Shown here: one piece after another, positions 11,777 through 37,867 of the stretch
Layout of the letters: each line of letters begins with the position of its first letter
Position numbering within the stretch: position 1 is the stretch's first letter
DNA from: Thalassococcus halodurans
GTDB taxonomy: Bacteria; Pseudomonadota; Alphaproteobacteria; Rhodobacterales; Rhodobacteraceae
DNA length: 64,000 nucleotides
NCBI RefSeq assembly: GCF_900108225.1
Contig: NZ_FNUZ01000002.1
Span: 622,501-686,500 of the forward strand
Reading direction: 5' to 3'
Notes under the pieces: model-generated
Seen by the model: only the letters and a program-made list of their open reading frames with translations
Database searches by the model: none
Told to the model about the DNA's origin: nothing
Program-made: the position numbers and the translations under genes

Positions 11777-13027
11777 ATGAAAAATCTGTTTTTGGGCGTA
11801 TCTGGCCTCGCGATGATGGCAAGCGTCGCATCGGCCGGTGGTCTCGACCGCTCTGGTCAGAGCGTTTCTGCGATCTTCGCAGACGATAACACAGCCAGCC
11901 TGTCGTTCGGCTATGTCGCACCCAGCATCACGGGTACAGACAGCCAAGGCGCAAGCTATGACGTTGGCAACAACTACTCGCAAATCGGCCTGAGCTACAC
12001 GAATTCGATCAACGACAAAGTGAACTACTCGGTCATCTTTGATCAGCCGTATGGCGCGGACGTTTCCTACAACACCAACCCGTTCATTTCGAACCTTGGC
12101 GGGACAGGTGCAGATCTGGACAGCCAAGCAATCAGCTTTGTTGCACGTTTCAAACTGAACGATCGCATCAGCTTCTTCGGCGGCATCAAGGGCGAAGCTG
12201 TTGAGGGCGAAGTCAGCCTGAACGGTACGTCTTACGCCAGTGCAATCGCTGTCAACGCAGTCGCTGGCGCAACGCCTGGCGTTGAGGCCGAGACACTTGG
12301 CGCAGCTTTGCAAGGTGATCCAGACGCCATCGCGGCATTGGGTGGTTTGGCAGCGGTTAGCGCACTGGGCACGGCTGTGGCCACTCAGGCCGGTACATTT
12401 CTGACGACAGGCGGCTACTCCTTCGACATGGAGAAAGACACCAAGGTTGGTTACATCTTGGGTGCGGCATACGAGATCCCCGAGATCGCGCTGCGCTTTG
12501 CTCTGACATACTCGCCCGAGATCCAGCACAAAGCAAAGACAACGGAAAACATCTTTGGTGCCGTTGTTACTGGCGACGTTGAATACGTGACACCGCAGTC
12601 TGTGAACCTTGAATTCCAGACAGGTATCGCAGCCAATACGCTTCTGACAGCTGGCTACCGCTGGACTGAATTTTCGGCTGTGGACGTTATTCCCGACGCA
12701 CTTGGTTCCGACCTTGTGAACCTTGACGACAGCCACCGCTACTCAATCGGTTTGGCGCGCCGTTACTCTGATGCGTTGGCATCCTCGATCACGCTGACGT
12801 ACGAACCCGAGGGCGAAGATAACCTCGTATCCCCGCTCGGGCCGACCAACGGTCTGTTCGGTGTCAGCATCGGCGCACTTTACTCGGAAGGCCCGCTGAA
12901 CATCTCTGGCGGTGTAAACTACACCAAGGTTGGCGATGCGCTGGCTGAAGTTGGCGGACGTGAAGCAGCGTCGTTCGAAGACAACCACGTCTGGGGCGTC
13001 GGCTTTAAGGCTGAAATGTCCTTCTAA
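11777..13027 (+). CDS. Outer membrane FadL/OmpP1 family transport protein
   Basis: A beta-barrel channel of the FadL/TodX family, which moves long-chain fatty acids or other hydrophobic compounds across the outer membrane. The 416-residue protein has a signal peptide ending at ASA near residue 20, alternating-residue strand patterns throughout, and a C-terminal strand ending WGVGFKAEMSF with the terminal phenylalanine used for barrel assembly. Residues about 155-215 form an alanine/glycine-rich insertion. ATG 11777 is preferred to 11762 because it begins the signal peptide and follows GAGGAAC. A strong terminator closes the gene. Confidence 0.88.
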   Translation: MKNLFLGVSGLAMMASVASAGGLDRSGQSVSAIFADDNTASLSFGYVAPSITGTDSQGASYDVGNNYSQIGLSYTNSINDKVNYSVIFDQPYGADVSYNTNPFISNLGGTGADLDSQAISFVARFKLNDRISFFGGIKGEAVEGEVSLNGTSYASAIAVNAVAGATPGVEAETLGAALQGDPDAIAALGGLAAVSALGTAVATQAGTFLTTGGYSFDMEKDTKVGYILGAAYEIPEIALRFALTYSPEIQHKAKTTENIFGAVVTGDVEYVTPQSVNLEFQTGIAANTLLTAGYRWTEFSAVDVIPDALGSDLVNLDDSHRYSIGLARRYSDALASSITLTYEPEGEDNLVSPLGPTNGLFGVSIGALYSEGPLNISGGVNYTKVGDALAEVGGREAASFEDNHVWGVGFKAEMSF

Positions 13028-17517: not shown

Positions 17518-18375
17518 ATGGGCAAGACGTTCTTTCTGGGCCTCGGCGGCCAGAAATGTGGTTCAAGCTGGATTCAAGCCCAACTGGCCAAGGCCGAGGG
17601 CAGCGATTTCGGGCGACTGGGCGAATATCAGGTTTGGGAACATCAGCTGGGCGGCGTTTTCGCCCGCTACAAGGTGGCCGAGCCCTCCAAGTTCGAAAAG
17701 CTGCGCACACGTCTGAAACTCTCCGTCGGCGCGCCGGAACCGGTGGCGCATCTTCGCTGGCGGCTACAATCCGATCCCAACGCCTATCTTGACTACTTTG
17801 CCGCCTTGCTTGAACAACAGGGCATAGAGCGCACTGGCGATATTACCCCCAGTTACGCCGCCCTGCCCGCCGATATGCTGGCCATGATCAGTTACGGCTT
17901 TGCCTCTCGAGGAATCGAGACCAAGGTGATTTTTTCCATGCGCGATCCGGTGGCCCGCCTGAAATCGCACTTCCGCATGGACATCCAGAAAGGCCGTATT
18001 CCGGAACCGAAAGACTTCGATGCTGCGCTGGTCGAGTTCGCGAAATCCGAAGAAGGCATGACCCGCAGCCGATACGATCTCACGCTCGCCAATATCAAAG
18101 AGGCCTTTTCCGAAGGTCAAACCCACATCTGCCTTTTCGAAGAGCTGTTCACGCCGGAAGGAATCCAAAGCCTTTCTGAATTCTCAGGCGTACCATTGGC
18201 AACGAACGCAGGCGGCACCAAGGTGAATGCGCGGCAAGGCGGATCTGACGCGTCTGAAAATGCCGCGAAAGAAATCGCAATGCATTATGCGCAGGTCTAT
18301 CAAACGGTCACACAACAATTTCCGCAGATTGAAACCCTTTGGCCGCAAGCCAAGGCCGTTCCTACCACCGCATAA
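17518..18375 (+). CDS. Sulfotransferase-family protein
   Basis: A 285-residue protein with a PAPS-binding layout: a 5'-phosphosulfate loop variant GGQKCGSSWIQAQL at the N-terminus and a 3'-phosphate region VIFSMRDPVARLKSHFRMD near residue 145. It would transfer sulfate to a carbohydrate or other acceptor in the cytoplasm. The acceptor is unknown. It starts nine bases after the TetR gene and overlaps by 14 bases at its 3' end with the convergent glycosyltransferase gene. Two more sulfotransferase-like domains occur in the 27135-34031 cluster. Confidence 0.75.
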   Translation: MGKTFFLGLGGQKCGSSWIQAQLAKAEGSDFGRLGEYQVWEHQLGGVFARYKVAEPSKFEKLRTRLKLSVGAPEPVAHLRWRLQSDPNAYLDYFAALLEQQGIERTGDITPSYAALPADMLAMISYGFASRGIETKVIFSMRDPVARLKSHFRMDIQKGRIPEPKDFDAALVEFAKSEEGMTRSRYDLTLANIKEAFSEGQTHICLFEELFTPEGIQSLSEFSGVPLATNAGGTKVNARQGGSDASENAAKEIAMHYAQVYQTVTQQFPQIETLWPQAKAVPTTA

Positions 18376-19396
18376 GACCACAGTCCAAGAACTGTTCTTC
18401 GCTTTCAAATTTTTGCGTTTCCGGCCCGACAAAGCGGCCGTCCACAGCCTCCATTTTTGAAAGCAACTCACTGTAATATCTGTATTTTGACGCACCCGAT
18501 GTATGCGCCTTCCACTCCTGTGCGCGCGCAATCTTCTCTGCAAAGCGAGCCGTGAAAACGAAGTGTCCGATCGTCAGCAAGATGCTGTCGCTAGGCGGTT
18601 GATTGCAGTAATGCGATCCAATCTGCCAGCTTGTGTTTGACCGGCGAACCAAAGGGATCTTGTGCCTTGGAGATTTCTGGAAAAGCTGTGCTTTCTTCTC
18701 ACGCCGTGACGTGAGCAGTCGTTTGAAAAAGCCGCCCTCAACACTTGGCTGAACGCCGTACTGTTCGAACAAGCGATTGGTTTTGGACAGGTTGATCAAT
18801 TCCGGATCCATCCCCTTGCGAAGGTTCACCAACGGTTCGGGCTCAAAGCATGGATAGCTTCCCAACAAGCCTTGGAAGTCTTTCGGCATCGGGCCTGCCA
18901 GACCGGAAATTGCTTCGGGAAAGAATTCGACCACTGAGGCCACTGCGCAATCCGCCGCTTCTTTGTCCATTCGATCGATTACTTGCTGGATCGATACGTC
19001 GGGCGGCAGGAACAAGAACTCATCCGCGTCAAAGTATCCGACGATCTGGTCTGGACAATACACGTGTGGAATTGCTGCCTTAAAATAGATACCAGCGCGA
19101 TCTTCGCGCCTGCTGCCGTCAGGAAATGTCACGGTTACGGGAACGCCAAAGGTCAGATGGCTGGTAAACAGCACCACATCATTCTGAGCTTCCAGAAAAG
19201 CACGCCCGCCATCACTGCTTTGGTCATCAAAAATAAGGAACTGGCTAAATCCCAATTCCCTGTAGTGGTCCAGAAACGCCGGAAGCAGGTCCATCTCGTC
19301 CTTGACGATGGCGAACATCGACACCGCATTCGTCCGGATCTTACCCGAAACGATGGTCACAAGATCAGAGACATCTTCCAGACGTAGATTCAGCAT
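18362..19396 (-). CDS. Glycosyltransferase family 2 (Glyco_tranf_2_4 type)
   Basis: A 344-residue cytoplasmic glycosyltransferase of the GT-A fold. Residues about 25-60 have FAIVKDEMDLLPAFLDHYRE and LIFDDQSSDGG, the pattern of this subfamily, and the metal-binding DxD is in YFDADEFLF near residue 125. A conserved later segment YCNQPPSDSILLTIGHF replaces the common LNHYALRS motif of the cluster paralogues. Donor and acceptor are unknown. It converges on the sulfotransferase gene, the same two families as in the larger cluster near 27-33 kb. Confidence 0.78.
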   Translation of the reverse strand: MLNLRLEDVSDLVTIVSGKIRTNAVSMFAIVKDEMDLLPAFLDHYRELGFSQFLIFDDQSSDGGRAFLEAQNDVVLFTSHLTFGVPVTVTFPDGSRREDRAGIYFKAAIPHVYCPDQIVGYFDADEFLFLPPDVSIQQVIDRMDKEAADCAVASVVEFFPEAISGLAGPMPKDFQGLLGSYPCFEPEPLVNLRKGMDPELINLSKTNRLFEQYGVQPSVEGGFFKRLLTSRREKKAQLFQKSPRHKIPLVRRSNTSWQIGSHYCNQPPSDSILLTIGHFVFTARFAEKIARAQEWKAHTSGASKYRYYSELLSKMEAVDGRFVGPETQKFESEEQFLDCGLMRW

Positions 19397-24725: not shown

Positions 24726-25988
24726 CTATTCGTTGATCATGGTCATCAGGCGGGCTTTTTCGCCCAGATCATCGGGCCGTGAAATCGCCTCGGCCAGATC
24801 GGCCAAAGACTGAATCGAATGGCTGGCGCGGAAGCTGTCGACATGGGGCAGCATCTTTCTGATACCAGCGGCCTTGGGCGCGAATCCATCCCAACGCAGC
24901 AGCGGGTTTAGCCAGATCAAACGGCGCGAAGAAAGATGCAGACGCTGCATCTCCTTTTCCAGATCCCCCTCTGGGTCACGATCCAGACCGTCAGTGATCA
25001 GAAGAACGACAGCGCCCTGTCCCATAACGCGGCGCGACCAGTCGCGGTTGAAGCTGTGTAGGCATTCGCCAATGCGCGTGCCGCCTTCCCAGTCCTGCGC
25101 CTCTGCGCCCGCCGCTTTCAGCGCCGCATCAACGTCGCGGGTCGCCAAATGGCGCGTGATGTTTGTCAGACGCGTGCCAAAGGTAAAGGCATGGACCTTG
25201 GCCCACCCCGCACCTTTCTGGTTCGCAACAGCATGCAGGAAATGCAAAACCATCCTGCTATACTGGCTCATGGAACCCGAGATATCGCAAAGGACCACTA
25301 GGTTCGGCCAACGTGGGCGCGGCTCTTTCAAGGCCAGTTTCTGTAGCTCGCCCCCTTGGCGCATCGCACCACGGATTGTGCGCCGCCAATCGGCCTGCCG
25401 CCCATGGGTGGATGCCTTGCCTCGGCGTGATTTGATTGGCTTTACCGGCAATTCCAAGTTGGCAATGATGCGTTTGGCTTCTGCCACTTCCTCAAGCGAC
25501 ATCTGTTCAAAATCCAGACTGCGCAGCTTTTCGTCCGTCGAGATCGTCTGCGAGGCATCCACCTCGATCGAAATCTCTTCCTCGCGCTCGCCGCCTTCCG
25601 GTTCAGGCATATCCGGCAGGTTATCATCCAGAAGCGCCTGCGCCGCACGCTTTTCAGCCGCGTCAGCCGCGCGTTCTTCCTGAACGCCGCGCACCGATGG
25701 CAGCATCAATGACATCATATGTTCAAGGTATCGCGGATCGCGCCAGTACAGACGGAACAGCTGCGAAAAGGTCGCGCGATGTTCAGGGCGCGTCACGAAA
25801 CAGGCATGCAGCGTCCAGTAAAAATCGCGCTTTTCGGTAAAGCCTGCGGCCTCGACCGCGCGGATCGCATCAATCACCCGCCCCGGCCCCACGGGCAGAC
25901 CCGCACGGCGTAAGGCCCGCGCAAAATGGATGATGTTTTGCGCCAGCCGCGGGTTTTCCGGCAACTCTAGGGGGATGTATTCAGGCAT
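24726..25988 (-). CDS. VWA-domain (CoxE-like) protein
   Basis: A 420-residue protein of the CoxE/VWA-containing group. The C-terminal half is a von Willebrand A domain with the MIDAS motif VVLCDISGSMSQYSR near residue 237 and VVLLITDGLDRDPEGD near residue 330. The middle is acidic and charged. Partners of MoxR ATPases of this type help insert metals or remodel oxidoreductases, as in carbon monoxide dehydrogenase maturation; no such target enzyme is encoded here. The MoxR gene lies 16 bases upstream, so the two form an operon. Confidence 0.88.
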   Translation of the reverse strand: MPEYIPLELPENPRLAQNIIHFARALRRAGLPVGPGRVIDAIRAVEAAGFTEKRDFYWTLHACFVTRPEHRATFSQLFRLYWRDPRYLEHMMSLMLPSVRGVQEERAADAAEKRAAQALLDDNLPDMPEPEGGEREEEISIEVDASQTISTDEKLRSLDFEQMSLEEVAEAKRIIANLELPVKPIKSRRGKASTHGRQADWRRTIRGAMRQGGELQKLALKEPRPRWPNLVVLCDISGSMSQYSRMVLHFLHAVANQKGAGWAKVHAFTFGTRLTNITRHLATRDVDAALKAAGAEAQDWEGGTRIGECLHSFNRDWSRRVMGQGAVVLLITDGLDRDPEGDLEKEMQRLHLSSRRLIWLNPLLRWDGFAPKAAGIRKMLPHVDSFRASHSIQSLADLAEAISRPDDLGEKARLMTMINE

Positions 25989-26004
25989 GCCCGATCAGCC
26001 CCGC

Positions 26005-26916
26005 TTAATCTGCCATTGCCAGTTGTTCGCGGGTTTCGTCCAGAATGCGTTTCGCCTCGGACCCTTGGATTTTCGCGATGTCGTCCTGATATTTCAGGAT
26101 CGCACCCAACGTGTCCGAAATCACCTCGGGCGACAGATCGATCACATCCAACGCCAGCAGGCATTTTGCCCAGTCGATGGTTTCCGCTACACCCGGTTTC
26201 TTGAACAGATCTTCGGTCCGCAGGCGCTGAACAAAGGCCACAACCTCGCGGCTTAGGTTTTCTGCAACCTCTGGCGCACGGGCGTGCAGGATTTCGACTT
26301 CGCGCGGGAAATCGGGGTAATCGACCCAGTGATACAGACAACGACGTTTCAACGCGTCATGCACTTCGCGCGTCCGGTTGGAGGTCAGGATCACAATCGG
26401 TGGCTCGGGCGCTTTTACGGTGCCGAGTTCGGGGATCGTCACCTGAAAATCAGACAGCGCCTCTAGCAAGAACGCCTCGAACGGTTCGTCCGTGCGGTCC
26501 AGTTCGTCGATCAGAAGAATAGGTGCGCCGTTTTCATCGGGGCGCATCGCTTCAAGCAACGGGCGCTCCACCAGAAATTCGTCCGAAAACAATTCGGTCT
26601 GCAAAGCCTGACGGTCGGCACCGCCAGATGCCTCTGCCGTGCGGATGGCCACCATCTGTGCCGCAAAGTTCCATTCATAAACGGCCGAAGACGCATCCAA
26701 ACCTTCATAGCACTGCAAACGGATCAGCTTGCGCCCCAGCATCGCGGCCAGTGCCTTGGCGATCTCGGTTTTACCGACGCCAGCCTCGCCCTCTAGAAAC
26801 AGCGGTCGGCCCAGTTTCAACGACAGAAAAACGACCGTCGCCAAGGCCCGCCCACAGACGTATCCGGTTTCCGACAAACGCGCCTGAACTTCATCGATGC
26901 TTGATGGAATGGTCAT
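26005..26916 (-). CDS. MoxR-family AAA+ ATPase
   Basis: A 303-residue chaperone-like ATPase. Walker A is FLEGEAGVGKTEIAKALA near residue 40, Walker B ILLIDELDRTDEPFEAFL near residue 132, and sensor 1 VILTSNRTREVHDALKRR near residue 175. It would act with the downstream VWA protein to remodel or metallate a client enzyme. The upstream gap of 218 bases to the divergent glycosyltransferase gene is unremarkable apart from a short GCGCCA/TGGCGC hairpin near 27067. Confidence 0.9.
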   Translation of the reverse strand: MTIPSSIDEVQARLSETGYVCGRALATVVFLSLKLGRPLFLEGEAGVGKTEIAKALAAMLGRKLIRLQCYEGLDASSAVYEWNFAAQMVAIRTAEASGGADRQALQTELFSDEFLVERPLLEAMRPDENGAPILLIDELDRTDEPFEAFLLEALSDFQVTIPELGTVKAPEPPIVILTSNRTREVHDALKRRCLYHWVDYPDFPREVEILHARAPEVAENLSREVVAFVQRLRTEDLFKKPGVAETIDWAKCLLALDVIDLSPEVISDTLGAILKYQDDIAKIQGSEAKRILDETREQLAMAD

Positions 26917-27134: not shown

Positions 27135-28166
27135 ATGCGTGTGACCGCGGTAACCTGCGTGAAAAACGAAGGTCCATTCCTTTTGGAATGGATTGCCTTC
27201 AACCGCCTGATCGGTGTGACCGATTTTCTTTTTTATTCAAACGACTGCACGGACGGCACCGATAAGCTGCTGGACGCAATGGCGGCCCGTGGTGGCGTGG
27301 TTCACCTGCCCAACCCCGCTGAAGGCCGCAATTACCAGATGGAGGCGCTAAAGGACTGCGCCCACACCGATGTGGTTAAAAATTCCGATTGGGTATGGAT
27401 CGCGGATGTTGATGAGTTCCTGAATATTCATGTGGGCGATCACACCATTCCTGCGCTGATCGAGGCTTGCGGTAATCCCAAGGCGATTTCCGTGACGTTT
27501 CAGTTTTTTGCCAGCGGCGATGTGCGCGACTACGAAGATCGCCCCGTCATCGAACAATTCACTTACAGCCATAATCCCGACCTGTGGTGCGCTGAGTCCG
27601 CGATCGAGGTCAAATCACTGACCCGCCGTGACTTCCCACTACAATACTACGGCGCGCACCGCGCCTTTTTCCGCAAAGGTCTGGCAGAAGAAAAGCGGCC
27701 CACATGGACCGACGGATCGGGCCGCAAGGTTCAGCACAAATTTCTGGTTGCCGCCAACCCGCGCCGGATTCGGAAATTTCCCGCCGCGGGCGCGCGCAAC
27801 TTTGCGACGTTGAACCACTATGCACTGCGGTCACTAGACAGCTATCTGGTTAAAAACGACCGTGGTGATGTGAACCGCGAACACCGTGCGTTCGATGATA
27901 CCTACTGGCGCGAACGGAATGACAGCGCGTGGGAGGATACATCGATCCATCGCTACCTGCCTGCCCTGAACGACGCCCTGGCAGAGCTGAAATCCGACCC
28001 GGAGATCGGCGCACTCCACGACGAATGCGTGCGCCTGCACAAAGCCAAGCGCGACGAGCTTATGGCACAAGACAGCTACCGCGAAATGTACAATCAACTT
28101 GCGTCTTTGCCGCCCTATCCACCGGGCGAGTTGGAACTGATGCAAGAACTGGGGATCGCACCATGA
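27135..28166 (+). CDS. Glycosyltransferase family 2 (Glyco_tranf_2_4 type)
   Basis: A 343-residue GT-A fold transferase. The N-terminus VTAVTCVKNEGPFLLEWIAF and FLFYSNDCTDGTDKLLD are the hallmark of the subfamily; the metal-binding DxD is in IADVDEFLNI near residue 95, and LNHYALRSLDSYLVK lies near residue 235. ATG 27135 is preferred to an upstream TTG because it begins the conserved strand and follows GGGGGTGG. It opens a run of six same-strand genes; its stop overlaps the next start (ATGA). Donor and acceptor are unknown. Confidence 0.85.
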   Translation: MRVTAVTCVKNEGPFLLEWIAFNRLIGVTDFLFYSNDCTDGTDKLLDAMAARGGVVHLPNPAEGRNYQMEALKDCAHTDVVKNSDWVWIADVDEFLNIHVGDHTIPALIEACGNPKAISVTFQFFASGDVRDYEDRPVIEQFTYSHNPDLWCAESAIEVKSLTRRDFPLQYYGAHRAFFRKGLAEEKRPTWTDGSGRKVQHKFLVAANPRRIRKFPAAGARNFATLNHYALRSLDSYLVKNDRGDVNREHRAFDDTYWRERNDSAWEDTSIHRYLPALNDALAELKSDPEIGALHDECVRLHKAKRDELMAQDSYREMYNQLASLPPYPPGELELMQELGIAP

Positions 28167-28816
28167 GCCGGTTGCGTGTGGTTAACCTAGGGCTACCTAA
28201 GTCTGGGACTACAACTTTGGGTCAAGCCCTGACACAAGCCGGCCTGCGTGTTGCGGATTGGAAGATTCGCAAAGGCCAATCTGACAAGGATGCATTGAGA
28301 GGCGAATTTGTCGCGACATGCCTTTACAGGGGATATTTCGAAAAAGGCGACCCATTAGCGATTTTGGATGAATTCGATGCGTTTACTGAAATCAGTACGA
28401 TTTCGAAGGGCCTAAACATGTGGCCACAGTTCGACTTTGGTCTTCTTTCTGAAATCGACAAGCGGCACTCAGGCGCAAAGTTTATCTTATCAATGCGTCC
28501 TGCGGAAAAAATAGTAGACTCAATGATGCGTTGGTCAAACCTAGGAACTGGGCGATTGCCAAATAATTCGGTTCCAGGCCTTCCAAAGGGATTTGGGACG
28601 AACCGCGATCAATTGGTTCGTTGGGTAAATGGTCATTACAATTTTGTGCGCAAATCGTTTGGTAGCCAAAATAACTTTCTAGAATACAGCATTGACGATC
28701 CTAAAGCGCCCAAAATTATCGGTGATTTCCTGGGGATCGAGTTGCCCTGGTGGGGGCGCAGTAACGAAAACAAAAACAGTGCGTCTGAGGGCGCGGTAAA
28801 AGGCAAAGACGAGTAG
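28163..28816 (+). CDS. Sulfotransferase-family protein, AT-richer than its neighbours
   Basis: A 217-residue cytoplasmic protein with a clear PAPS-binding loop NLGLPKSGTTTLGQAL at the N-terminus and a 3'-phosphate region FILSMRPAEKIVDSMMRW near residue 115. It should sulfate a glycan made by the neighbouring transferases. The gene overlaps the previous stop by four bases and its own stop (TAG) shares a base with the next start (GTG). Base composition differs from the flanks: positions 28561-28680 contain 50 G or C in 120, against about two thirds G+C in parts of the next gene, suggesting later acquisition. Confidence 0.82.
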   Translation: MSRLRVVNLGLPKSGTTTLGQALTQAGLRVADWKIRKGQSDKDALRGEFVATCLYRGYFEKGDPLAILDEFDAFTEISTISKGLNMWPQFDFGLLSEIDKRHSGAKFILSMRPAEKIVDSMMRWSNLGTGRLPNNSVPGLPKGFGTNRDQLVRWVNGHYNFVRKSFGSQNNFLEYSIDDPKAPKIIGDFLGIELPWWGRSNENKNSASEGAVKGKDE

Positions 28817-31197
28817 TGCGGGTTTATCTTCATATCGGGCCGGACGCGGATAGCGCAGACAGGCTACAGCGTGTTCTAGACGCGAAACGGGATCAGTTGA
28901 TCAGCAAGGGCGTGCTTTACGCCCGTTCACCTGGAGCGCGGAACCATACACGTTTGTTCATGGCCAGCAGCGATCCGGACGCCGTTGATGCGCTGCGCTT
29001 CAACCGTGGCTTCATCCTGCCTGAAAAACAGGCCCGTCTTCGTGAAGATGTCACGCAAAGCCTTGCTGCCGAGGTCGGCGCCACGCGCCCTGACGTGTTG
29101 ATCCTGTCCTGTCATCAGCTTGGTACAACTTTGATGCGCGCCACAGAACGTGCGCGTTTACAAGACATCCTGCGCCCCTTGTCGGATGACATCCGTGTCA
29201 TTGCCACTGTCGACGACCCTGCCCGCATGCTTGCCCGCCGTTATGCCGCACAAGTACTGGACGGCCGCAGCAGCGGACTTGAGGTTGAACTGGGCCTGAT
29301 CAAGAAAGACAATTGGTGGGACGGTGCCCTGTCACGCTGGCCCGGCCTACGACCCGAGGCCGGTGTTTTCCCCGAGGTGCAAGGCCCCTCGCCTTGGCTT
29401 GATCTGGCACGGCTGGTTCAGGAATGGGACAGCACGTTCGGCAAAGGCGCGACGCAGCTTGTGTCCTTCGACCGCGACCGGATGTGGACCGATGCCTTCG
29501 CCGACGATCTGAAAGCTGTCTTTGAAATTCCGCACAACTTTGGCCGCGCGGAACCTGCGGACGTGCCGCAGCAACCCTCTGCTGCGTGGCTGTCCCGAGC
29601 GCGCCGTTTTAATGATGCCGTCATACGCCTTTTGGATCGCACGGATATGATCCTCGGTCGCCCGCTGTGGCGCAAACTGGTTGGCGAAATCAAAGTGTCC
29701 GGTGATCCTATCGACGCAGGCTGTTTGAATGAAATCTCGGCCTTTTTTGCCGAAGACCTGCAGGAATTGGCTGAAAACCATCCTGATCTCCACCTCGAAC
29801 ATCTGCATCCCGATCCGGAACAGGATCGTTGGGAAGAGGCAGATCCGATGTTTGGTTTCCGCCCGACCCAGTACCTGATGGCCGCCCGTTGGCGTATCAA
29901 TCAGGCCGCAAAGCAGGAAATGGAAAGCAAAGCGCAGGCCCTGCAAGCTCTGCAATCCATGCCAGCCCATGAACAAGAAGCGGCCAGCACAACCCTGCCC
30001 CCTGTCGATGGCCTGACACCAGAGGCCGACGCGGTTATGCCCCAACTGGCCAAGGAAAAATTTGCCCAGCTTCAGGGTTCGATCTATGCGCCGCACAACA
30101 ACATCGGTCGCGTCAACGAAGAAGAGCTTGCCGCCGCATTCGAGCCTATTACGCCCCGCCAATTGCCCGAGGGCAATACCGGCAATGTGATCGTCGGCTG
30201 CATGAAGAACGAAGCGCCCTATATCATTGAATGGGTCGCCTACCACCGCGCCATGGGCGTTGATAACTTCCTGATCTACACCAACGGATGCGAGGACGGG
30301 ACGACAGAAATCCTTGATCGCCTGCAGGAAATGGGCGTGCTCCAGCACCGTTTGAACGACGACTGGAAAGGCAATTCACCCCAGCAATACGCGCTGAACC
30401 GGTCGTTGAAAGAACCGGTGATCATGAACGCCGAGTGGATCGCGCATATCGACGTGGATGAGTTCATCAACGTCCGCTGCGGCAACGGCACCCTTCAGGA
30501 TTTCTTTGAACGCGTTCCAGATGCCACCAATGTTGCGATGACATGGCGGCTGTTCGGGCACAACGGCGTGACAAAACTGGCCGATGAATTTGTCATCGAA
30601 CAGTTTGATACCTGCGCCCCGAAATTCTGCCCCAAGCCGCACACCGTCTGGGGCTATAAAACGATGTACAAGAACATCGGCGCCTACCAGAAAATCAGCT
30701 GCCATCGCCCGAACAAACTGAACGAAGGCTTTGATACAAAAGTAAAATGGGTCAATGGATCCGGTCTGGACATGACTGGCGAAGCGATCAACAACGGCTG
30801 GCGGTCGTCCAAGAAATCCATCGGGTATGATCTGCTTCAACTTAACCACTATGCGCTGCGCTCTGCTGAAAGCTTCCTTGTGAAACGCCAGCGTGGTCGC
30901 GCCCTGCATGTCGATCGGTCCATCGGTTTGAACTACTGGATCCGCATGGATTGGACGGACTTCAAAGACATCACCATCAAACGCAACGTGCCCCGTCTGC
31001 GGGCCGAATACGATCGTTTGATGCAAGATGAGACGCTACGCAAATGGCATGAAACAGGTGTCGCGTGGCATCGTGCCAAGGCTGATGAACTGCACGGAAT
31101 GCCCGAATTTGAAGAACTGTATCAGCAGGCTTTGTCGCTGAAACTGACAGAAACCGAACGCGTCGCGTATGCTCTGGCATTGGATTTGGAAAGTTAA
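28816..31197 (+). CDS. Degenerate sulfotransferase-like domain fused to a GT2 glycosyltransferase
   Basis: A 793-residue two-domain protein. Residues about 1-330 resemble sulfotransferases of the 'HIGPHKTGTT' type, but the P-loop reads LHIGPDADSADRLQ, without the lysine and threonines that bind PAPS; the later IRVIATVDDPARMLARRY matches the 3'-phosphate strand-helix. Residues about 455-790 are a Glyco_tranf_2_4 domain (VIVGCMKNEAPYIIEWVAYH, FLIYTNGCEDGTTEIL, HIDVDEFINV, LNHYALRSAESFLVKRQRG). A linker of about 100 residues, partly charged, joins them. The start is GTG overlapping the previous stop. The first domain may be a non-catalytic binding module. Confidence 0.75.
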   Translation: MRVYLHIGPDADSADRLQRVLDAKRDQLISKGVLYARSPGARNHTRLFMASSDPDAVDALRFNRGFILPEKQARLREDVTQSLAAEVGATRPDVLILSCHQLGTTLMRATERARLQDILRPLSDDIRVIATVDDPARMLARRYAAQVLDGRSSGLEVELGLIKKDNWWDGALSRWPGLRPEAGVFPEVQGPSPWLDLARLVQEWDSTFGKGATQLVSFDRDRMWTDAFADDLKAVFEIPHNFGRAEPADVPQQPSAAWLSRARRFNDAVIRLLDRTDMILGRPLWRKLVGEIKVSGDPIDAGCLNEISAFFAEDLQELAENHPDLHLEHLHPDPEQDRWEEADPMFGFRPTQYLMAARWRINQAAKQEMESKAQALQALQSMPAHEQEAASTTLPPVDGLTPEADAVMPQLAKEKFAQLQGSIYAPHNNIGRVNEEELAAAFEPITPRQLPEGNTGNVIVGCMKNEAPYIIEWVAYHRAMGVDNFLIYTNGCEDGTTEILDRLQEMGVLQHRLNDDWKGNSPQQYALNRSLKEPVIMNAEWIAHIDVDEFINVRCGNGTLQDFFERVPDATNVAMTWRLFGHNGVTKLADEFVIEQFDTCAPKFCPKPHTVWGYKTMYKNIGAYQKISCHRPNKLNEGFDTKVKWVNGSGLDMTGEAINNGWRSSKKSIGYDLLQLNHYALRSAESFLVKRQRGRALHVDRSIGLNYWIRMDWTDFKDITIKRNVPRLRAEYDRLMQDETLRKWHETGVAWHRAKADELHGMPEFEELYQQALSLKLTETERVAYALALDLES

Positions 31198-31198
31198 G

Positions 31199-31891
31199 AT
31201 GCCCGAGGCCGCAAGCCATACTGATGTGATTAAAGCCGCTGGATTTCTGTTTCCGAACGACCCGCGTTTTATTTCGGTCCGGATCGCCAAGCGGCTCGAA
31301 CGTGGTGGCTATGAAGAACACGAAGCAAATGCTGTACGTCAGGTTCTGCGTCGAGGGGATCGCGTGCTCGAATTAGGTGGCGGCATTGGCTTTATCTCAT
31401 CCCTGATCGGCACATCCCGCCCCCCGTCAGAGTTTCATGTTTATGAGGGCAATCCCCAGCTGGTTCCATATATCCGTCAGGTTCACGCGCTGAATGGTCT
31501 GGACAACATCAATGTCCACAACACGCTTTTGTCTGTCGACGCCACAGACGACGTTGCCTTTTACCTGCGTGAGGATTTTTTGGGCTCTTCAATGGATCGC
31601 GACAATGATCCGGACACGATCATTGACACCGTGATGGTGCCTCAAAAACCGTTCTCTGACGTTATTGAAACGCTGCAACCGACCTTCCTTGTGTGCGACA
31701 TCGAAGGCGCTGAAAGCACGATTTTACCATCTGCGGACCTGTCATGTCTGCGAGCCGCTGTTGTAGAGCTTCATCCACAATGGACCGGTCAGAACGGTGT
31801 TCAGGCCGTCTTTGATGCCTTCCAAAACGCAGGCTTGACCTACTTTGCCCGCACATCACACGGCAAAGTCGTTACATTCAAGAAGCGGTGA
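31199..31891 (+). CDS. FkbM-family methyltransferase
   Basis: A 230-residue SAM-dependent methyltransferase. The SAM motif VLELGGGIGFISSLIG is near residue 57, the acidic residue of motif II is in EFHVYEGNPQLVPYI, and the FkbM-type FLVCDIEGAESTIL near residue 170 and AVVELHPQW follow. FkbM enzymes usually methylate sugar hydroxyls. ATG 31199 starts one base after the upstream stop; the next gene starts seven bases after its stop. It probably methylates the glycan handled by the adjacent glycosyltransferases. Confidence 0.85.
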   Translation: MPEAASHTDVIKAAGFLFPNDPRFISVRIAKRLERGGYEEHEANAVRQVLRRGDRVLELGGGIGFISSLIGTSRPPSEFHVYEGNPQLVPYIRQVHALNGLDNINVHNTLLSVDATDDVAFYLREDFLGSSMDRDNDPDTIIDTVMVPQKPFSDVIETLQPTFLVCDIEGAESTILPSADLSCLRAAVVELHPQWTGQNGVQAVFDAFQNAGLTYFARTSHGKVVTFKKR

Positions 31892-31898
31892 TAACCAA

Positions 31899-32966
31899 AT
31901 GAAAATACTCGCGATTCTTTGCGTTCGAAACGAAGGAGCCTTCCTGCTGGACTGGCTGGCGCACACACTGGCGTCCGGCGTGACGCATGTGTTGGCCTAT
32001 TCAAACGACTGCGACGATGGCACCGACCTGATGCTTGATCGGCTATCAGAGGTCGCGCCGGTCACACACCTGCGCAACCCTGGGCCCTATGATCAGGGCG
32101 GCATTCAATTCACTGCCCTAAAGGACGCCGCCAAGCAGAAATTGGTCAAAGAGGCCGACTGGATTCTTCCGCTGGATGTGGATGAGTTCATCAACGTCCA
32201 TGTCGGCAACCGCACCCTGCCCGATCTGATCAACGCGCTGCCTGACGCCACGGCAATCACGCTGACGTGGCGGTTGTTCGGGAACAACGGACAAGCGCGA
32301 TATCACGATCAGCCGGTGCCACATCGGTTTGCCAAAGCCGCGCCTAAAATCCTGTACTGGCCATGGCGCGCGTCGATGTTCAAAACGCTTTACAAGAACG
32401 ACGGCACCTATGGAAAACCGGGCGTCCATCGCCCCCGTTCCCCCAACGACAACAAGATCAGCCAAGCCCGCTGGTTTGATGGCCACGGGCGCGAGCTCGA
32501 CGCGCTGTTCCAGACAAAACGAATCTTTTCGACCTTTGGGCAAGACAACTACGGTCTGGCCCAGCTTAACCACTATCCCTTGGGCGACATGGAAAGTTAC
32601 GTGCTCAAGGCCTATCGCGGCCGCGCTGTGCATTCCGACCATTTGCTGGGGTTGGATTACTGGGTGGAACGCAATTTCAACGTCGAAGAAGATCAGACCA
32701 TCCGACAATTGGACCCGCTTGTGGCAAAGTTCCGCGCAGAGTTCGCGAAGGACAGTCAATTGGCGGAACTTCACGATAAATCAGTAGCTTGGCGCAAAGA
32801 GACATTCGACAAGCTGATGTTGGAGGAACCCTACCGAGCGCTATTCGGTCGCCTTCTCATGACGCCCCCGACACAGCCGGTTCCCCTGAATGCCGCGCGC
32901 TTTCTTTCCAGCTATGGCAACCGCGCTCGGGAATTGGCCCTCCAAAATCCTGATCAAAAACCCTAA
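31899..32966 (+). CDS. Glycosyltransferase family 2 (Glyco_tranf_2_4 type)
   Basis: A 355-residue GT-A fold transferase and a close relative of the 27135 gene and of the C-terminal domain at 28816. Shared features are ILCVRNEGAFLLDWLAHTL, LAYSNDCDDGTDLMLD, the DxD in PLDVDEFINVHVGNRTL near residue 97, and AQLNHYPLGDMESYVLKAYRGRA near residue 225. ATG 31899 lies seven bases after the FkbM stop. A 96-base gap without clear terminator follows before the next gene. Confidence 0.85.
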   Translation: MKILAILCVRNEGAFLLDWLAHTLASGVTHVLAYSNDCDDGTDLMLDRLSEVAPVTHLRNPGPYDQGGIQFTALKDAAKQKLVKEADWILPLDVDEFINVHVGNRTLPDLINALPDATAITLTWRLFGNNGQARYHDQPVPHRFAKAAPKILYWPWRASMFKTLYKNDGTYGKPGVHRPRSPNDNKISQARWFDGHGRELDALFQTKRIFSTFGQDNYGLAQLNHYPLGDMESYVLKAYRGRAVHSDHLLGLDYWVERNFNVEEDQTIRQLDPLVAKFRAEFAKDSQLAELHDKSVAWRKETFDKLMLEEPYRALFGRLLMTPPTQPVPLNAARFLSSYGNRARELALQNPDQKP

Positions 32967-33062
32967 ATCTCCTACGATACGGCTCAATTTTGCCTAAATG
33001 CGCTGGAATACGTTTGGAAAATATGCGCCTGAAATGGGCCACGGATCGAGGATACGCAGACA

Positions 33063-34031
33063 ATGCAGGACATTTCTGACCTGATTGATGATGATTTGCC
33101 CGAGCTGTCCTACAAGGACTGGCGCGGTCGTATGCGTGCCATCGGCGATGTCCATGGTTTCTACGAAGAACTCGGTCCAGCCCATCACGGCTTGTTTGTC
33201 GAAGACGGCGATACGCTGCTTGTGACGTTCGAAAGCTTCGCGGGCATCCAGACCCTTTCAAACGATGGTATGCCGCTTGGTTACCAGATGGTTCAATCCG
33301 AAGGCTGGTCGCATCTGGCGGTCGTGTCGAAATCCGACACATGGTTCCGCGCGCCCGAGGTCTATGGCTTTTTCGACCAACTCAGCGACGACGGTTTCTT
33401 TGACGAATTCGATAAGGTCGTCTTCTACGGCGCAGGCCCCTGCGGATACGCAGCCGCGGCGTTTTCCGTGTCCGCACCGGGCGCACGTGTTCTGGCGCTC
33501 CAGCCTCAGGCCACGCTTGATCCGCGCGTTAGTGAATGGGACGAGCGTTTCACAGAGCAACGCCGGATGTCCTTCACGGACCGCTATGGCTATGCCCCCG
33601 ACATGCTGGATGCGGCGCAACAGGCCTATGTGCTTTATGACCCGCGCGAACATCTGGACGCGGTGCATTCGGCCCTGTTCAATCGCAGCAATGTCAAACG
33701 CTTCCGGATGCCGTTCATGGGCGCAGCTTTGCAATCCGACATTATCGATCTGGACCTGCTAGAGCCTTTGCTGGTCGCCGTTGCCAGCGATACGCTGACG
33801 GACCTCAGCTTTGCCAAAATGCTGCGCGCGCGCCGAGATCACGTGCCCTATTTGATGAAACTGCTCGCCAAGCTGGACGCCGACGGGCGCGAAGGCCTTG
33901 CCCTGATGCTGTGCGAAAACGTGGTGCCACGCCATCCGGTTCGCCGGTTCCGCCGCCGCCTGCGCACGCTGCGCCTTACCGATGGCGATGAAACCGAAAC
34001 GGACACACAGTCCGCTACCTACGCCGACTGA
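33063..34031 (+). CDS. Protein of unknown function with nucleophile-elbow-like motif
   Basis: A 322-residue soluble protein that I cannot name. The central VVFYGAGPCGYAAAAFS near residue 120-137 resembles an alpha/beta-hydrolase nucleophile elbow with cysteine in place of serine, and is followed by strand-loop ARVLALQPQATLDPRVSEWDERF. The C-terminal 60 residues are arginine-rich and then acidic. I recall homologues labelled as phosphoadenosine-phosphosulfate reductase, but none of the cysteine/PAPS motifs of that enzyme is visible. As the last gene of the glycan cluster it may process the same product. It ends 17 bases inside the convergent membrane-protein gene. Confidence 0.6.
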   Translation: MQDISDLIDDDLPELSYKDWRGRMRAIGDVHGFYEELGPAHHGLFVEDGDTLLVTFESFAGIQTLSNDGMPLGYQMVQSEGWSHLAVVSKSDTWFRAPEVYGFFDQLSDDGFFDEFDKVVFYGAGPCGYAAAAFSVSAPGARVLALQPQATLDPRVSEWDERFTEQRRMSFTDRYGYAPDMLDAAQQAYVLYDPREHLDAVHSALFNRSNVKRFRMPFMGAALQSDIIDLDLLEPLLVAVASDTLTDLSFAKMLRARRDHVPYLMKLLAKLDADGREGLALMLCENVVPRHPVRRFRRRLRTLRLTDGDETETDTQSATYAD

Positions 34032-34290: not shown

Positions 34291-34407
34291 CGCAAACCTA
34301 CCTTCGCTTTCGCGGTGATGTTGCCTGATGTCGGAACCAAGGTAAACATGGACAAGGGCACAGAATGCCTCTGGCCCCGCGTCACACCTCGTGCTAACCG
34401 CACAATT

Positions 34408-35448
34408 ATGACCGACATGCTGACACTCCGCCGCCCCGACGACTGGCACCTGCACCTGCGCGATGGCGCAATGCTCAAGGCCGTTCTGCCTGAAACCGCA
34501 CGCCATTTCAGCCGTGCGATCATCATGCCGAACCTTGTGCCGCCCGTTGTGACATCCACAGACGCAGCCGCCTATCGCGACCGCATTCTGGCGGCCCTGC
34601 CCGATGGCATGACGTTCGAGCCGCTGATGACACTCTATCTGACCGAGAACACGGATCCCAAGGATGTGGCAGCCGCCCATGCCTCTGGCCTGATCAAGGC
34701 GGTCAAGCTTTACCCCGCGGGTGCCACGACGAACTCGGCCTCGGGCGTCACGAATTTCGAAAACGTCCGCGCGGTGCTTGAGAAAATGGCCGAGATCGGC
34801 CTGCCCCTGTGTGTGCATGGCGAAGTGACGACACATGACGTCGATATCTTTGACCGCGAAGCTGTGTTTATCGACACTGTTCTGGATCCGCTGCGGAAAA
34901 GCACACCAGGACTGCGCGTGGTCATGGAACACATCACAACACGCCAAGGCGTGGAATATGCCCGTTCCGGCGGCGACGATCTGGGCGCGACGATCACCAC
35001 GCACCACTTGGTCATCAACCGTAACCACATTCTGGTTGGCGGCATCAAACCGCATTACTACTGCCTGCCCGTCGCCAAGCGCGAAGAGCATCGCTTGGCC
35101 CTGCGCGACGCCGCAACATCGGGTGAAGGTCGCTTCTTCCTTGGCACCGACAGCGCGCCGCATCCCGACGATGCGAAGGAAAGCGCTTGTGGCTGCGCGG
35201 GCTGCTTTACAGCAACCAACACCATGTCGATCCTTGCCGAAGTGTTTGAACAGGACGGTGCGCTGGACAAGCTTGAGGCCTTCACATCGCTGAACGGCCC
35301 TGCGTTCTACGGACTGCCTGCGAACACCGACACCATCACCCTGACCAAGGGCGATGCCGTCACCTACCCCGAAAAAATCCAGACTGGCGAGGCCGAAGTG
35401 ACCGTCTTCGACCCCGCCATGCCGCTGCACTGGCGCGTCAACGCCTGA
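34408..35448 (+). CDS. pyrC: Dihydroorotase (PyrC type)
   Basis: Zinc enzyme closing carbamoyl aspartate to dihydroorotate in pyrimidine synthesis. The 346-residue class II form starts [20 protein letters not shown], including the metal-binding HxH; the carboxylated lysine is in [17 protein letters not shown] near residue 100, and [16 protein letters not shown] carries the late aspartate. ATG 34408 gives the family-standard N-terminus; ATG 34348 upstream, after AAGG, would add 20 residues. pyrE follows 27 bases later, so the two share an operon. Confidence 0.96.
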
Positions 35449-35475
35449 CCCTGCGATCCAAAGAAAGGTACACTG

Positions 35476-36153
35476 ATGATCCCGACCAGCTTTCCCACCA
35501 AAGAGGAAATCGCCCGCCTGTCCGCGCGGATGTTGTTGGAAATCGGTGCTGTGAACTTCCGTCCGGAAGATCCGTTCATTCTGGCGTCCGGTCTGCCTTC
35601 GGCGACCTATATCGACTGCCGCAAGCTGATCTCGTTCCCGCGTATCCGCTCGACCCTGATGGATTTCCTGACAGTCACCGTGATGCGCGACGCGGGTTTT
35701 GAAGCGTTCGACAACATCGCAGGTGGCGAAACAGCGGGCATTCCCTTTGCCGCACTGGTGGCCGAACGCATGGCGCTGCCCATGACCTACGTTCGTAAAA
35801 AGCCTAAAGGCTACGGCAGAAACGCCCGCATCGAAGGTGCGATGACAGAAGGCCAGCGGGTTCTGCTGGTCGAAGACCTGACCACTGACGGCGGCTCCAA
35901 GATCAGCTTTGTAGACGCGATCCGCGACACTGGCGCGTCTTGCGCGCATACTGCTGTGATCTTCTACTACGGAATTTTCCCGGAAACCGAAAAGACGCTG
36001 GGCGATCATGGCGTGACGCTGCACCACCTCTGCACGTGGTGGGACGTGCTGGAAGCCGCGCGCGAAATGGGCAGCTTCGACGAATCGACATTAGCCGAAG
36101 TGGAAAAATTCCTGCGCGATCCGCGCGAATGGCAGGCAGCACACGCAGTCTGA
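35476..36153 (+). CDS. pyrE: Orotate phosphoribosyltransferase
   Basis: Joins orotate with PRPP to form OMP, the step after dihydroorotate oxidation. The 225-residue protein has the PRPP-binding motif [14 protein letters not shown] near residue 133, preceded by [19 protein letters not shown], typical of the group found in Rhodobacterales. GAAAGG upstream supports the start. It is the second gene of the pyrC-pyrE unit, followed by a strong hairpin and then dnaB. Confidence 0.95.
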
Positions 36154-36164
36154 CAAAACGCGCC

Positions 36165-36215
36165 AAAAAATGCTGCACTGCAGTCAGCACGAACATGCTG
36201 ACTGCACCTGCGGCA
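36165..36215 (-). terminator. Long hairpin with a U-tract only on the minus strand, between pyrE and dnaB
   Basis: GCAGTCAGCA (36180-36189), loop CGAACA, TGCTGACTGC (36196-36205) is a perfect ten-pair stem, extended after a small bulge by TGCTGCA (36171-36177) against TGCGGCA (36209-36215). AAAAAA at 36165-36170 becomes UUUUUU right after the stem on a minus-strand transcript; on the plus strand only CTTTC follows. Thus it best fits a terminator for minus-strand RNA, though no minus gene lies here. It may also end pyrE transcription less efficiently. Confidence 0.6.
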
Positions 36216-36278
36216 CTTTCTAAATCTTGACGAAGTAGCCACCCGTACCGCAATATAGTGTGGTGTTTCTGGCCGTTC

Positions 36279-36299
36279 GATATCCCCAAGATATCCACA
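36279..36299 (+). promoter_or_regulatory. Repeated GATATCC with a DnaA-box-like site upstream of dnaB
   Basis: GATATCC occurs at 36279-36285 and 36290-36296, eleven bases apart, and the second runs into ATATCCACA (36291-36299), one mismatch from the DnaA box TTATCCACA. A possible -35 TTGACG lies at 36226-36231. The site is 81 bases before the dnaB start and could mediate DnaA control of the helicase gene; this is tentative. Confidence 0.35.
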
Positions 36300-36379
36300 G
36301 GAATATACCGTTTGCGTCACAGGGCATGGCTGTTCTATGCCCCACAGACCGGCAAAAATACGAACGAAACGAGGGGCAG

Positions 36380-37867
36380 ATGAACGAGATAGCGGCTTTC
36401 AATCCAACCGGGGCCGAAATCCAATCGCCTGATACGATGCCTCATTCCATCGAGGCTGAACAACAGCTCTTGGGCGCTATCCTGACCAACAACGACGTCT
36501 ATGACCGTGTTGCGTCGATCATCAGCGAAAAGCATTTCTACGACCCCGTTCACGCCCGCATTTTTGAAATTGCGGCGGCACGTATCGCCAAAAACAACCT
36601 TGCGTCGCCCGTAACGCTCAAGGCGTTTATGGAAGACGACGAAGGCCTGAAAGAACTGGGCGGCGCGGCCTATCTTGCGCGTCTGGCCGGTGCAGCTGTG
36701 TCGTCATTCGCGGTACGCGATTACGCCCAGATGATCTACGATCTGGCGATCCGCCGAGAACTGATCGCCCTCGGCCGTGAAATCGCAGACAAAGCCGCGC
36801 GTGTCGAAGTGGCGTCAGAGCCTAAAGACCAGATCGTTCAAGCGGAACAGTCGCTGTACAAACTGGCAGAACAAGGCAAGTCAGATTCCGGTTTCGTTAG
36901 TTTTCTCAAGGCTGTAACAGGCGCGGTTAACGTTGCCAACGCCGCCTACCAGCGGGAAGGCAAGCTGTCCGGCATTTCGACCGGACTGGTTGATCTGGAC
37001 GCGAAGCTGGGTGGTCTGAACCCCTCTGACCTTCTGATCCTCGCGGGTCGTCCGTCGATGGGTAAAACCTCGCTTGCGACCAACATCGCGTACAATATCG
37101 CCAAGGCCTACAAGAAAGGCATCCGCCCCGACGGCACCGAAGGCGCTATTCAGGGCGGCGTCGTTGGCTTTTACTCGCTCGAAATGAGCTCTGAGCAGTT
37201 GGCCGCACGTATCCTGTCCGAAGCGTCCGAGATTTCGTCCCACAAAATCCGTCAGGGTGACATGGAAGAAGATGAATTCCGCCGCTTTGTTGAGGCTGCG
37301 AAGAAACTCGAATCCTGCCCGCTTTATATCGACGACACGCCCGCCCTGCCCATCGCTCAGCTGGCCGCCCGTGCACGCCGTCTGAAACGGACCCATGGCC
37401 TTGACGTTTTGATCGTCGACTACCTTCAGCTGGTGCGCGGTATGTCCGACAACCGTGTGCAAGAGATCGGCGAAATCTCGATGGGCCTGAAGGCGATCGC
37501 CAAGGAACTGAACATCCCAGTGGTTGCCCTGTCCCAGCTTAGCCGTACGGTTGAAAGCCGCGACGATAAACGCCCGCAGCTGTCCGACCTTCGTGAATCG
37601 GGCTCGATCGAACAGGATGCGGACGCCGTTATGTTCGTGTTCCGCGAAGAATATTACGTGGAACGGGAAAAGCCGTCTGATGATAACCTTGAAGCAATGG
37701 CCGTCTGGCAAGACAAGATGTCCCGTCTGCACGGCAAGGCCGAGGTGATCATCGGCAAACAGCGTCACGGTCCGATTGGGACAGTCGAACTGTCGTTCGA
37801 AAGCCAGTTCACACGCTTTGGCAACCTTGCGAAAGCCTGGCAGAACAACGCCGTCGAAGAATACTAA
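36380..37867 (+). CDS. dnaB: Replicative DNA helicase
   Basis: Hexameric 5'-3' helicase that unwinds DNA at the replication fork. The 495-residue protein has the N-terminal primase-interaction domain (MPHSIEAEQQLLGAIL), the RecA-like domain with Walker A ILAGRPSMGKTSLAT near residue 222, Walker B LDVLIVDYLQLV, and the C-terminal LSDLRESGSIEQDADAV. ATG 36380 follows GAGGGGC; a longer frame upstream crosses the regulatory spacer. No intein is present. Confidence 0.97.
   Translation: MNEIAAFNPTGAEIQSPDTMPHSIEAEQQLLGAILTNNDVYDRVASIISEKHFYDPVHARIFEIAAARIAKNNLASPVTLKAFMEDDEGLKELGGAAYLARLAGAAVSSFAVRDYAQMIYDLAIRRELIALGREIADKAARVEVASEPKDQIVQAEQSLYKLAEQGKSDSGFVSFLKAVTGAVNVANAAYQREGKLSGISTGLVDLDAKLGGLNPSDLLILAGRPSMGKTSLATNIAYNIAKAYKKGIRPDGTEGAIQGGVVGFYSLEMSSEQLAARILSEASEISSHKIRQGDMEEDEFRRFVEAAKKLESCPLYIDDTPALPIAQLAARARRLKRTHGLDVLIVDYLQLVRGMSDNRVQEIGEISMGLKAIAKELNIPVVALSQLSRTVESRDDKRPQLSDLRESGSIEQDADAVMFVFREEYYVEREKPSDDNLEAMAVWQDKMSRLHGKAEVIIGKQRHGPIGTVELSFESQFTRFGNLAKAWQNNAVEEY

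Follow-up and report, generated by a model that had tools for sequence, protein, structure and literature searches.

Organization of the locus

The window, i.e., the whole analyzed stretch of 64,000 nt from Thalassococcus halodurans, contains six open reading frames on the forward strand that occupy positions 27135–34031 and are designated g1 to g6. Adjacent frames overlap by 4 and 1 bases or are separated by gaps of 1, 7, and 96 bases. The coordinates were checked in the window, and all genes, positions, overlaps, and gaps listed in an earlier sequence-only reading were reproduced from the open reading frames. On the left, the cluster is bordered by a coxE-like VWA gene and a moxR-like AAA gene (24726–26916, reverse strand), which were assigned with Pfam, are divergent from the cluster, and recur in nearly all orthologous loci. 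The right border consists of pyrC, pyrE, and dnaB (34315–37867, forward strand), which were recognized from the ORF translations and recur in most orthologous loci. Scans for promoters and terminators gave hardly more matches than were obtained with shuffled sequence.

It had also been claimed that the locus contains neither a polymerase nor a flippase. This was borne out, as Pfam detected neither of them in the locus, neither recurred as an extra gene in the loci compared, and nothing of the Wzx/Wzy type was present. In addition, none of the six proteins has a transmembrane stretch, and no lipid-acceptor domain was found among them with Pfam and NCBIfam. A further PF13704 glycosyltransferase-like gene is located about 9 kb away (18362–19396, reverse strand); it is not a close paralogue of the glycosyltransferases of the cluster.

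Genes with intact catalytic motifs

Three glycosyltransferase domains are encoded by g1 (27135–28166, 343 aa, GT2_4/GT92-like), by the C-terminal part of g3 (aa 446–793, 30151–31197, GT2_4/GT92-like), and by g5 (31899–32966, 355 aa, GT2_4). Their PF13704/PF01697 scores of 70.9, 81.4, and 76.7 bits, respectively, are all above the cut-off. The acidic metal-binding motif DVDEF is present in all three, at aa 91–95 of g1 and aa 93–97 of g5, and at least 95% of 55 g1 homologues retain it. In these scores and in this motif, the three domains resemble known PF13704/GT92 glycosyltransferases, from which they differ in that the central one is joined to a putative pseudo-sulfotransferase domain. With mutual identities of 31–38% they are paralogues, in agreement with the sequence-only reading. 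The central domain is the most conserved glycosyltransferase of the set (median pairwise identity 76%), and g5 stays paired with g6 in reduced loci.

The g2 gene (28163–28816, 217 aa) encodes a PAPS-dependent sulfotransferase according to both its profile match (PF17784, 34.7 bits, cut-off 22.8) and its P-loop PKSGTTT at aa 12–18. The 5′-PSB motif K-x-G-T-T is intact, and at least 95% of 51 homologues have K13, G15, and T16–T18. APS kinase is encoded in the genome. For g4 (31199–31891, 230 aa), the match to FkbM-type methyltransferases is weak and just above both cut-offs (PF05050, 24.0 with a cut-off of 22.7; TIGR01444, 40.9 bits with a cut-off of 37.7). The SAM-binding glycine motif GxGxG, which lies in LELGGGIGF, is conserved in its homologues, and the profile match together with this motif identifies g4 as an FkbM-type SAM methyltransferase. 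All families that had been named from the letters, i.e., three glycosyltransferase domains, a sulfotransferase, and an FkbM methyltransferase, were therefore found above the Pfam or NCBIfam cut-offs, the last one barely.

The two decorating genes are not present everywhere. Among 49 loci with g2, g3, g5, and g6, only 33 also contain g4, and g2 is missing from a few loci. Hence, g4 is dispensable, which had been overlooked when the set was described as a unit, while the intact motifs and the co-inheritance of its members stood. Since one in three loci lacks g4 and a few lack g2, the putative methyl and sulfate marks would not be essential.

A possible pseudo-sulfotransferase in the N-terminal half of g3

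In the g3 frame (28816–31197), an N-terminal domain (about aa 1–365, 28816–29910), termed g3N, was missed in the earlier gene inventory. None of the Pfam sulfotransferase families matched residues 1–365 across 54 members, and searching PDB sequences with profiles gave nothing convincing for g3N or for g6. The fold assignments for these two modules rest on AlphaFold, Foldseek, and hhalign. The AlphaFold model of g3N has a pLDDT of 95.5, and its best fold match in the PDB is a sulfotransferase (3rnl, E 7e-4), a weak match with TM values of 0.36/0.49. The sulfotransferase domains of human TPST2, curacin, and NDST also rank high, amid other P-loop proteins. An hhalign comparison of g3N with an intact roseobacter sulfotransferase covered 201 columns (E 1e-5, probability 82%) with the degraded motif in register. 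At this site, the intact enzyme reads HIGSPKTGTTALQ, and the g3N domains of the clusters read HIGPDxxxxxRLQ or similar; in the window, HIGPDADSADR is found where HIGxxKTGTT is expected. Nearly all g3N homologues have other residues in place of the PAPS P-loop, with one partial exception (locus L090), and they share no conserved substitute. Thus, the predicted fold and the homology of g3N are those of a sulfotransferase, but the 5′-PSB P-loop is absent. The N-terminal half of g3 is therefore probably a conserved pseudo-sulfotransferase.

A possible pseudo-alpha/beta-hydrolase encoded by g6

The g6 gene (33063–34031) had been listed as encoding an unknown protein. Indeed, no Pfam or NCBIfam family matched it above the cut-off, but a predicted fold had been overlooked. 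The AlphaFold model (pLDDT 88.9) yielded 367 PDB matches at E values up to 0.001, and almost all of the 50 matches listed are alpha/beta hydrolases. They include carboxylesterases and the capsule O-acetyltransferase of Neisseria meningitidis serogroup A (6yuo; TM 0.43 by query and 0.55 by target). In contrast to 6yuo and the alpha/beta-hydrolase esterases, g6 lacks the nucleophilic serine and the catalytic histidine, and Gly125 and Ala221 are found at these positions. Both residues are lost in all 52 members of the cluster-site clade, whereas paralogues elsewhere in the genomes retain GxSMGG and a later GH. Across 69 g6-type proteins, serine and histidine are either kept together or lost together, and the loss maps to one branch with a support of 100/100. 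The acid residue Asp193 and a strict GAGPCGYAA elbow are kept in the window-like clade. Cys127 within this elbow was considered as a new nucleophile and rejected, as its position is wrong and its conservation does not extend to the wider clade. In summary, the modeled fold and the tree suggest that g6 is a conserved pseudo-alpha/beta-hydrolase.

Some of the relatives that keep serine and histidine form fusions with an intact sulfotransferase (L038) or with a capsular-type glycosyltransferase (L043, L045, L032). Others are plasmid-encoded next to genes for FkbM, GT2, or a sulfatase. In L038 (10559–12499), the sulfotransferase looks intact (HIGSPKTGTT) and is joined to the g6-type hydrolase domain. 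On plasmid pP78_c of Phaeobacter inhibens P78 (L167, 6671–13355), an intact g6-type hydrolase occurs together with glycosyltransferases and an FkbM methyltransferase. This module has its mix of families (GT, g6-like hydrolase, FkbM, GT2), placed side by side, in common with the cluster, but its g6-like protein keeps serine and histidine, it is plasmid-borne with another gene order, and no PF17784 sulfotransferase is annotated beside the g6-like gene. In L169 (5563–12906), three g6-type genes with both residues adjoin genes for a sulfatase and a formylglycine-generating enzyme. Relatives in this region (11974–12906, Thioclava plasmid p2) are publicly annotated as phosphoadenosine phosphosulfate reductase. 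This name is misleading and looks wrong, because neither Pfam nor NCBIfam detected such a domain in g6 at E values up to 1.

Distribution and gene order

The comparison was based on 36 stretches around g6 relatives in genomes of the family and on 80 named loci, and gene presence was determined by tblastn. Among the 80 named loci, 32 have the complete set in this order, and a further 16 have all genes but g4. Cultured marine strains with the complete set include Roseobacter sp. SK209-2-6 and Pseudooceanicola batsensis HTCC2597. As g6 served as the anchor in finding the named loci, clusters without g6 are under-counted in these numbers; a few exist (L159, L160). The cluster lies between moxR/coxE and, usually, pyrC, pyrE, and dnaB in dozens of genera, and no other gene was repeatedly found within the cluster in the loci compared. 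The co-occurrence in other genomes that the sequence-only reading had proposed as a check was thus found. Reduced forms in front of pyrC consist of g5 and g6 or of g6 alone. Since some genomes have only g6 next to pyrC and a few genomes with the cluster lack g6, this gene may have an independent role. In Salipiger (L069, L073, L083, L121) and at some other loci, the cluster stays beside moxR with pyrC out of reach; in these Salipiger loci, pyrC is not found within 10 kb downstream, and therefore, the right border is rearranged.

Of 396 genomes of the Rhodobacteraceae, 105 have a single orthologue of the central glycosyltransferase, and in a class-wide genome sample, all of its matches were confined to this family. 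The most widespread gene of the set is g6, relatives of which occur in 115 of 150 family genomes. The nearest relative is a Thalassococcus halodurans MAG. We propose that the operon is vertically maintained on the chromosome in the Rhodobacteraceae. Phage origin was rejected, as the only matches were one distant PHROG methyltransferase and Prevotella-phage glycosyltransferases at 23% identity. A defence system was rejected as well, because the PADLOC matches represented only generic ATPase or methyltransferase parts.

Selection and a local replacement of alleles

For eight close pairs, dN/dS values were 0.03–0.15 for g6 and 0.04–0.35 for g3N. By this measure, both modules are under purifying selection, and they are not decaying, as these values are in the range of the adjoining enzymes. 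When the window was compared with its nearest congener, the Thalassococcus MAG, the nucleotide identity was only 59–77% for g2 and 75–80% for g4, against a background of 92–98%, and the synonymous divergence of both genes was saturated or high. The divergent stretches relative to L066 are 28190–28790 (g2) and 31380–31890 (most of g4). This pattern looks like allele replacement by recombination. Swapping of the decorating genes as cassettes was rejected as a general rule, since no identity jump was seen in other close pairs from several genera, and thus, the putative g2/g4 replacement is a local event and not a property of the system.

Proposed function and alternatives

We hypothesize, with a probability of about 0.6, that the operon builds and decorates one cytosolic glycan, with g3N and g6 as binding or scaffold modules that have lost their chemistry. 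The related transferases g1, g3 (C-terminal half), and g5 would add sugars, g2 would transfer sulfate from PAPS onto the glycan, and g4, where present, would methylate it with SAM. Sulfation and methylation of a cytosolic glycan fit because the motifs of these five domains are intact and APS kinase is encoded. As the catalytic residues of the two remaining modules are gone, they may be helpers rather than catalysts, which would most likely bind the glycan or partner enzymes and thereby confer acceptor specificity or stabilize a complex. Once completed, the glycan would be handed over to machinery for export or ligation whose genes lie elsewhere, and its destination would most likely be a cell-surface polysaccharide or glycolipid. 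This reading is favored by the ordered conservation of the genes at one site, the lack of transmembrane stretches, the purifying selection on g3N and g6, the capsule O-acetyltransferase among the fold neighbors of g6, and the company of the g6 relatives with intact residues (sulfotransferase, capsular-type glycosyltransferase, FkbM, GT2, and sulfatase genes); counting against it are the lack of a polymerase, flippase, or export gene at the locus, the loci without g4 or g2, the solitary occurrence or loss of g6 in some genomes, and the marginal FkbM assignment of g4. The designation as a glycan-modification cluster held with regard to co-inheritance and intact motifs, but had overlooked the catalytic loss in g3N and g6. 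Tentatively, the two dead enzymes, with g6 as a free pseudo-O-acyl-hydrolase, could descend from active enzymes of the same glycan pathways and set the specificity of the decorating complex as glycan-reading or scaffold parts.

Several other explanations were weighed. A chance neighborhood of six unrelated genes might be suggested by the lack of g4 and, rarely, g2 in some loci and by the solitary occurrence of g6. However, it was refuted by synteny, with 32 complete loci and 16 loci without g4 in common order and site among 80, tight spacing, and no other recurring insert, and its probability is negligible. The locus could also be a dedicated flagellin glycosylation island, with its glycosyltransferases, sulfotransferase, and methyltransferase assembling a glycan on flagellin itself within the cytosol; FkbM methyltransferases are known from flagellin islands. 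Soluble glycosyltransferases that work without membrane anchors or a flippase would suit such protein glycosylation, but 16 of the 105 cluster-positive genomes have no flagellin match, the presence of the cluster is not associated with that of flagellin (odds ratio 1.66, p 0.12), and the locus does not adjoin flagellar genes. Flagellin as the sole target is thus disfavored, and the flagellin explanation as a whole is improbable.

A lipid or the lipopolysaccharide core could be decorated instead of a repeat-unit polysaccharide, in which case a few sulfated and methylated sugars would be transferred onto this membrane-bound acceptor. The three glycosyltransferases, few in number, and the lack of a polymerase or flippase that recurs at or next to the locus would be in agreement with this, whereas the set contains no membrane-associated glycosyltransferase and no detectable lipid-acceptor domain; we regard this option as rather unlikely. 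Lastly, g6 and g3N could have acquired a different chemistry or could now bind a small-molecule signal, e.g., sensing of PAPS or acyl-CoA for the regulation of the glycosyltransferases. The retained Asp193 and elbow of g6 and the purifying selection on both modules are compatible with a switch. Against it, the cysteine of GAGPCG is off the nucleophile position and variable in the wider clade, and nothing conserved has taken the place of the g3N P-loop, so this explanation is unlikely. The construction and decoration of a cytosolic glycan is the preferred reading.

Relation to known systems and implications

Sulfated polysaccharides are known from the capsular cluster of Vibrio sp. KMM 8419 (PMC11641403) and the exopolysaccharide of Salipiger mucosus (PMC2953402). 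Such clusters resemble the present locus in the joint presence of glycosyltransferases and a sulfotransferase, and Salipiger species carry the present cluster. In contrast to sulfated capsular or exopolysaccharide clusters, it lacks genes for a polymerase, a flippase, export, and sugar nucleotides and contains two catalytically degraded modules, and unlike a variable capsule locus, it resides at a fixed address among housekeeping genes. Nothing directly describing a system with this exact gene set was found in the open-access literature, in accord with the sequence-only reading. As far as this literature was searched, the locus would represent an undescribed glycan-decorating cluster in which the retention of two dead enzyme modules is unusual.

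Roseobacters are abundant among the colonizers of marine surfaces, and the central transferase is present in about a quarter of the sampled genomes of the family, while no paper on the locus was found in the open-access literature. With g3N and g6, bacteria would provide a clear example of sulfotransferase and hydrolase folds that are catalytically dead and yet kept within a glycan pathway. If a sulfated and methylated surface glycan is made, the locus would offer a fixed, testable target for studies of attachment, interaction with algae, and phage receptors.
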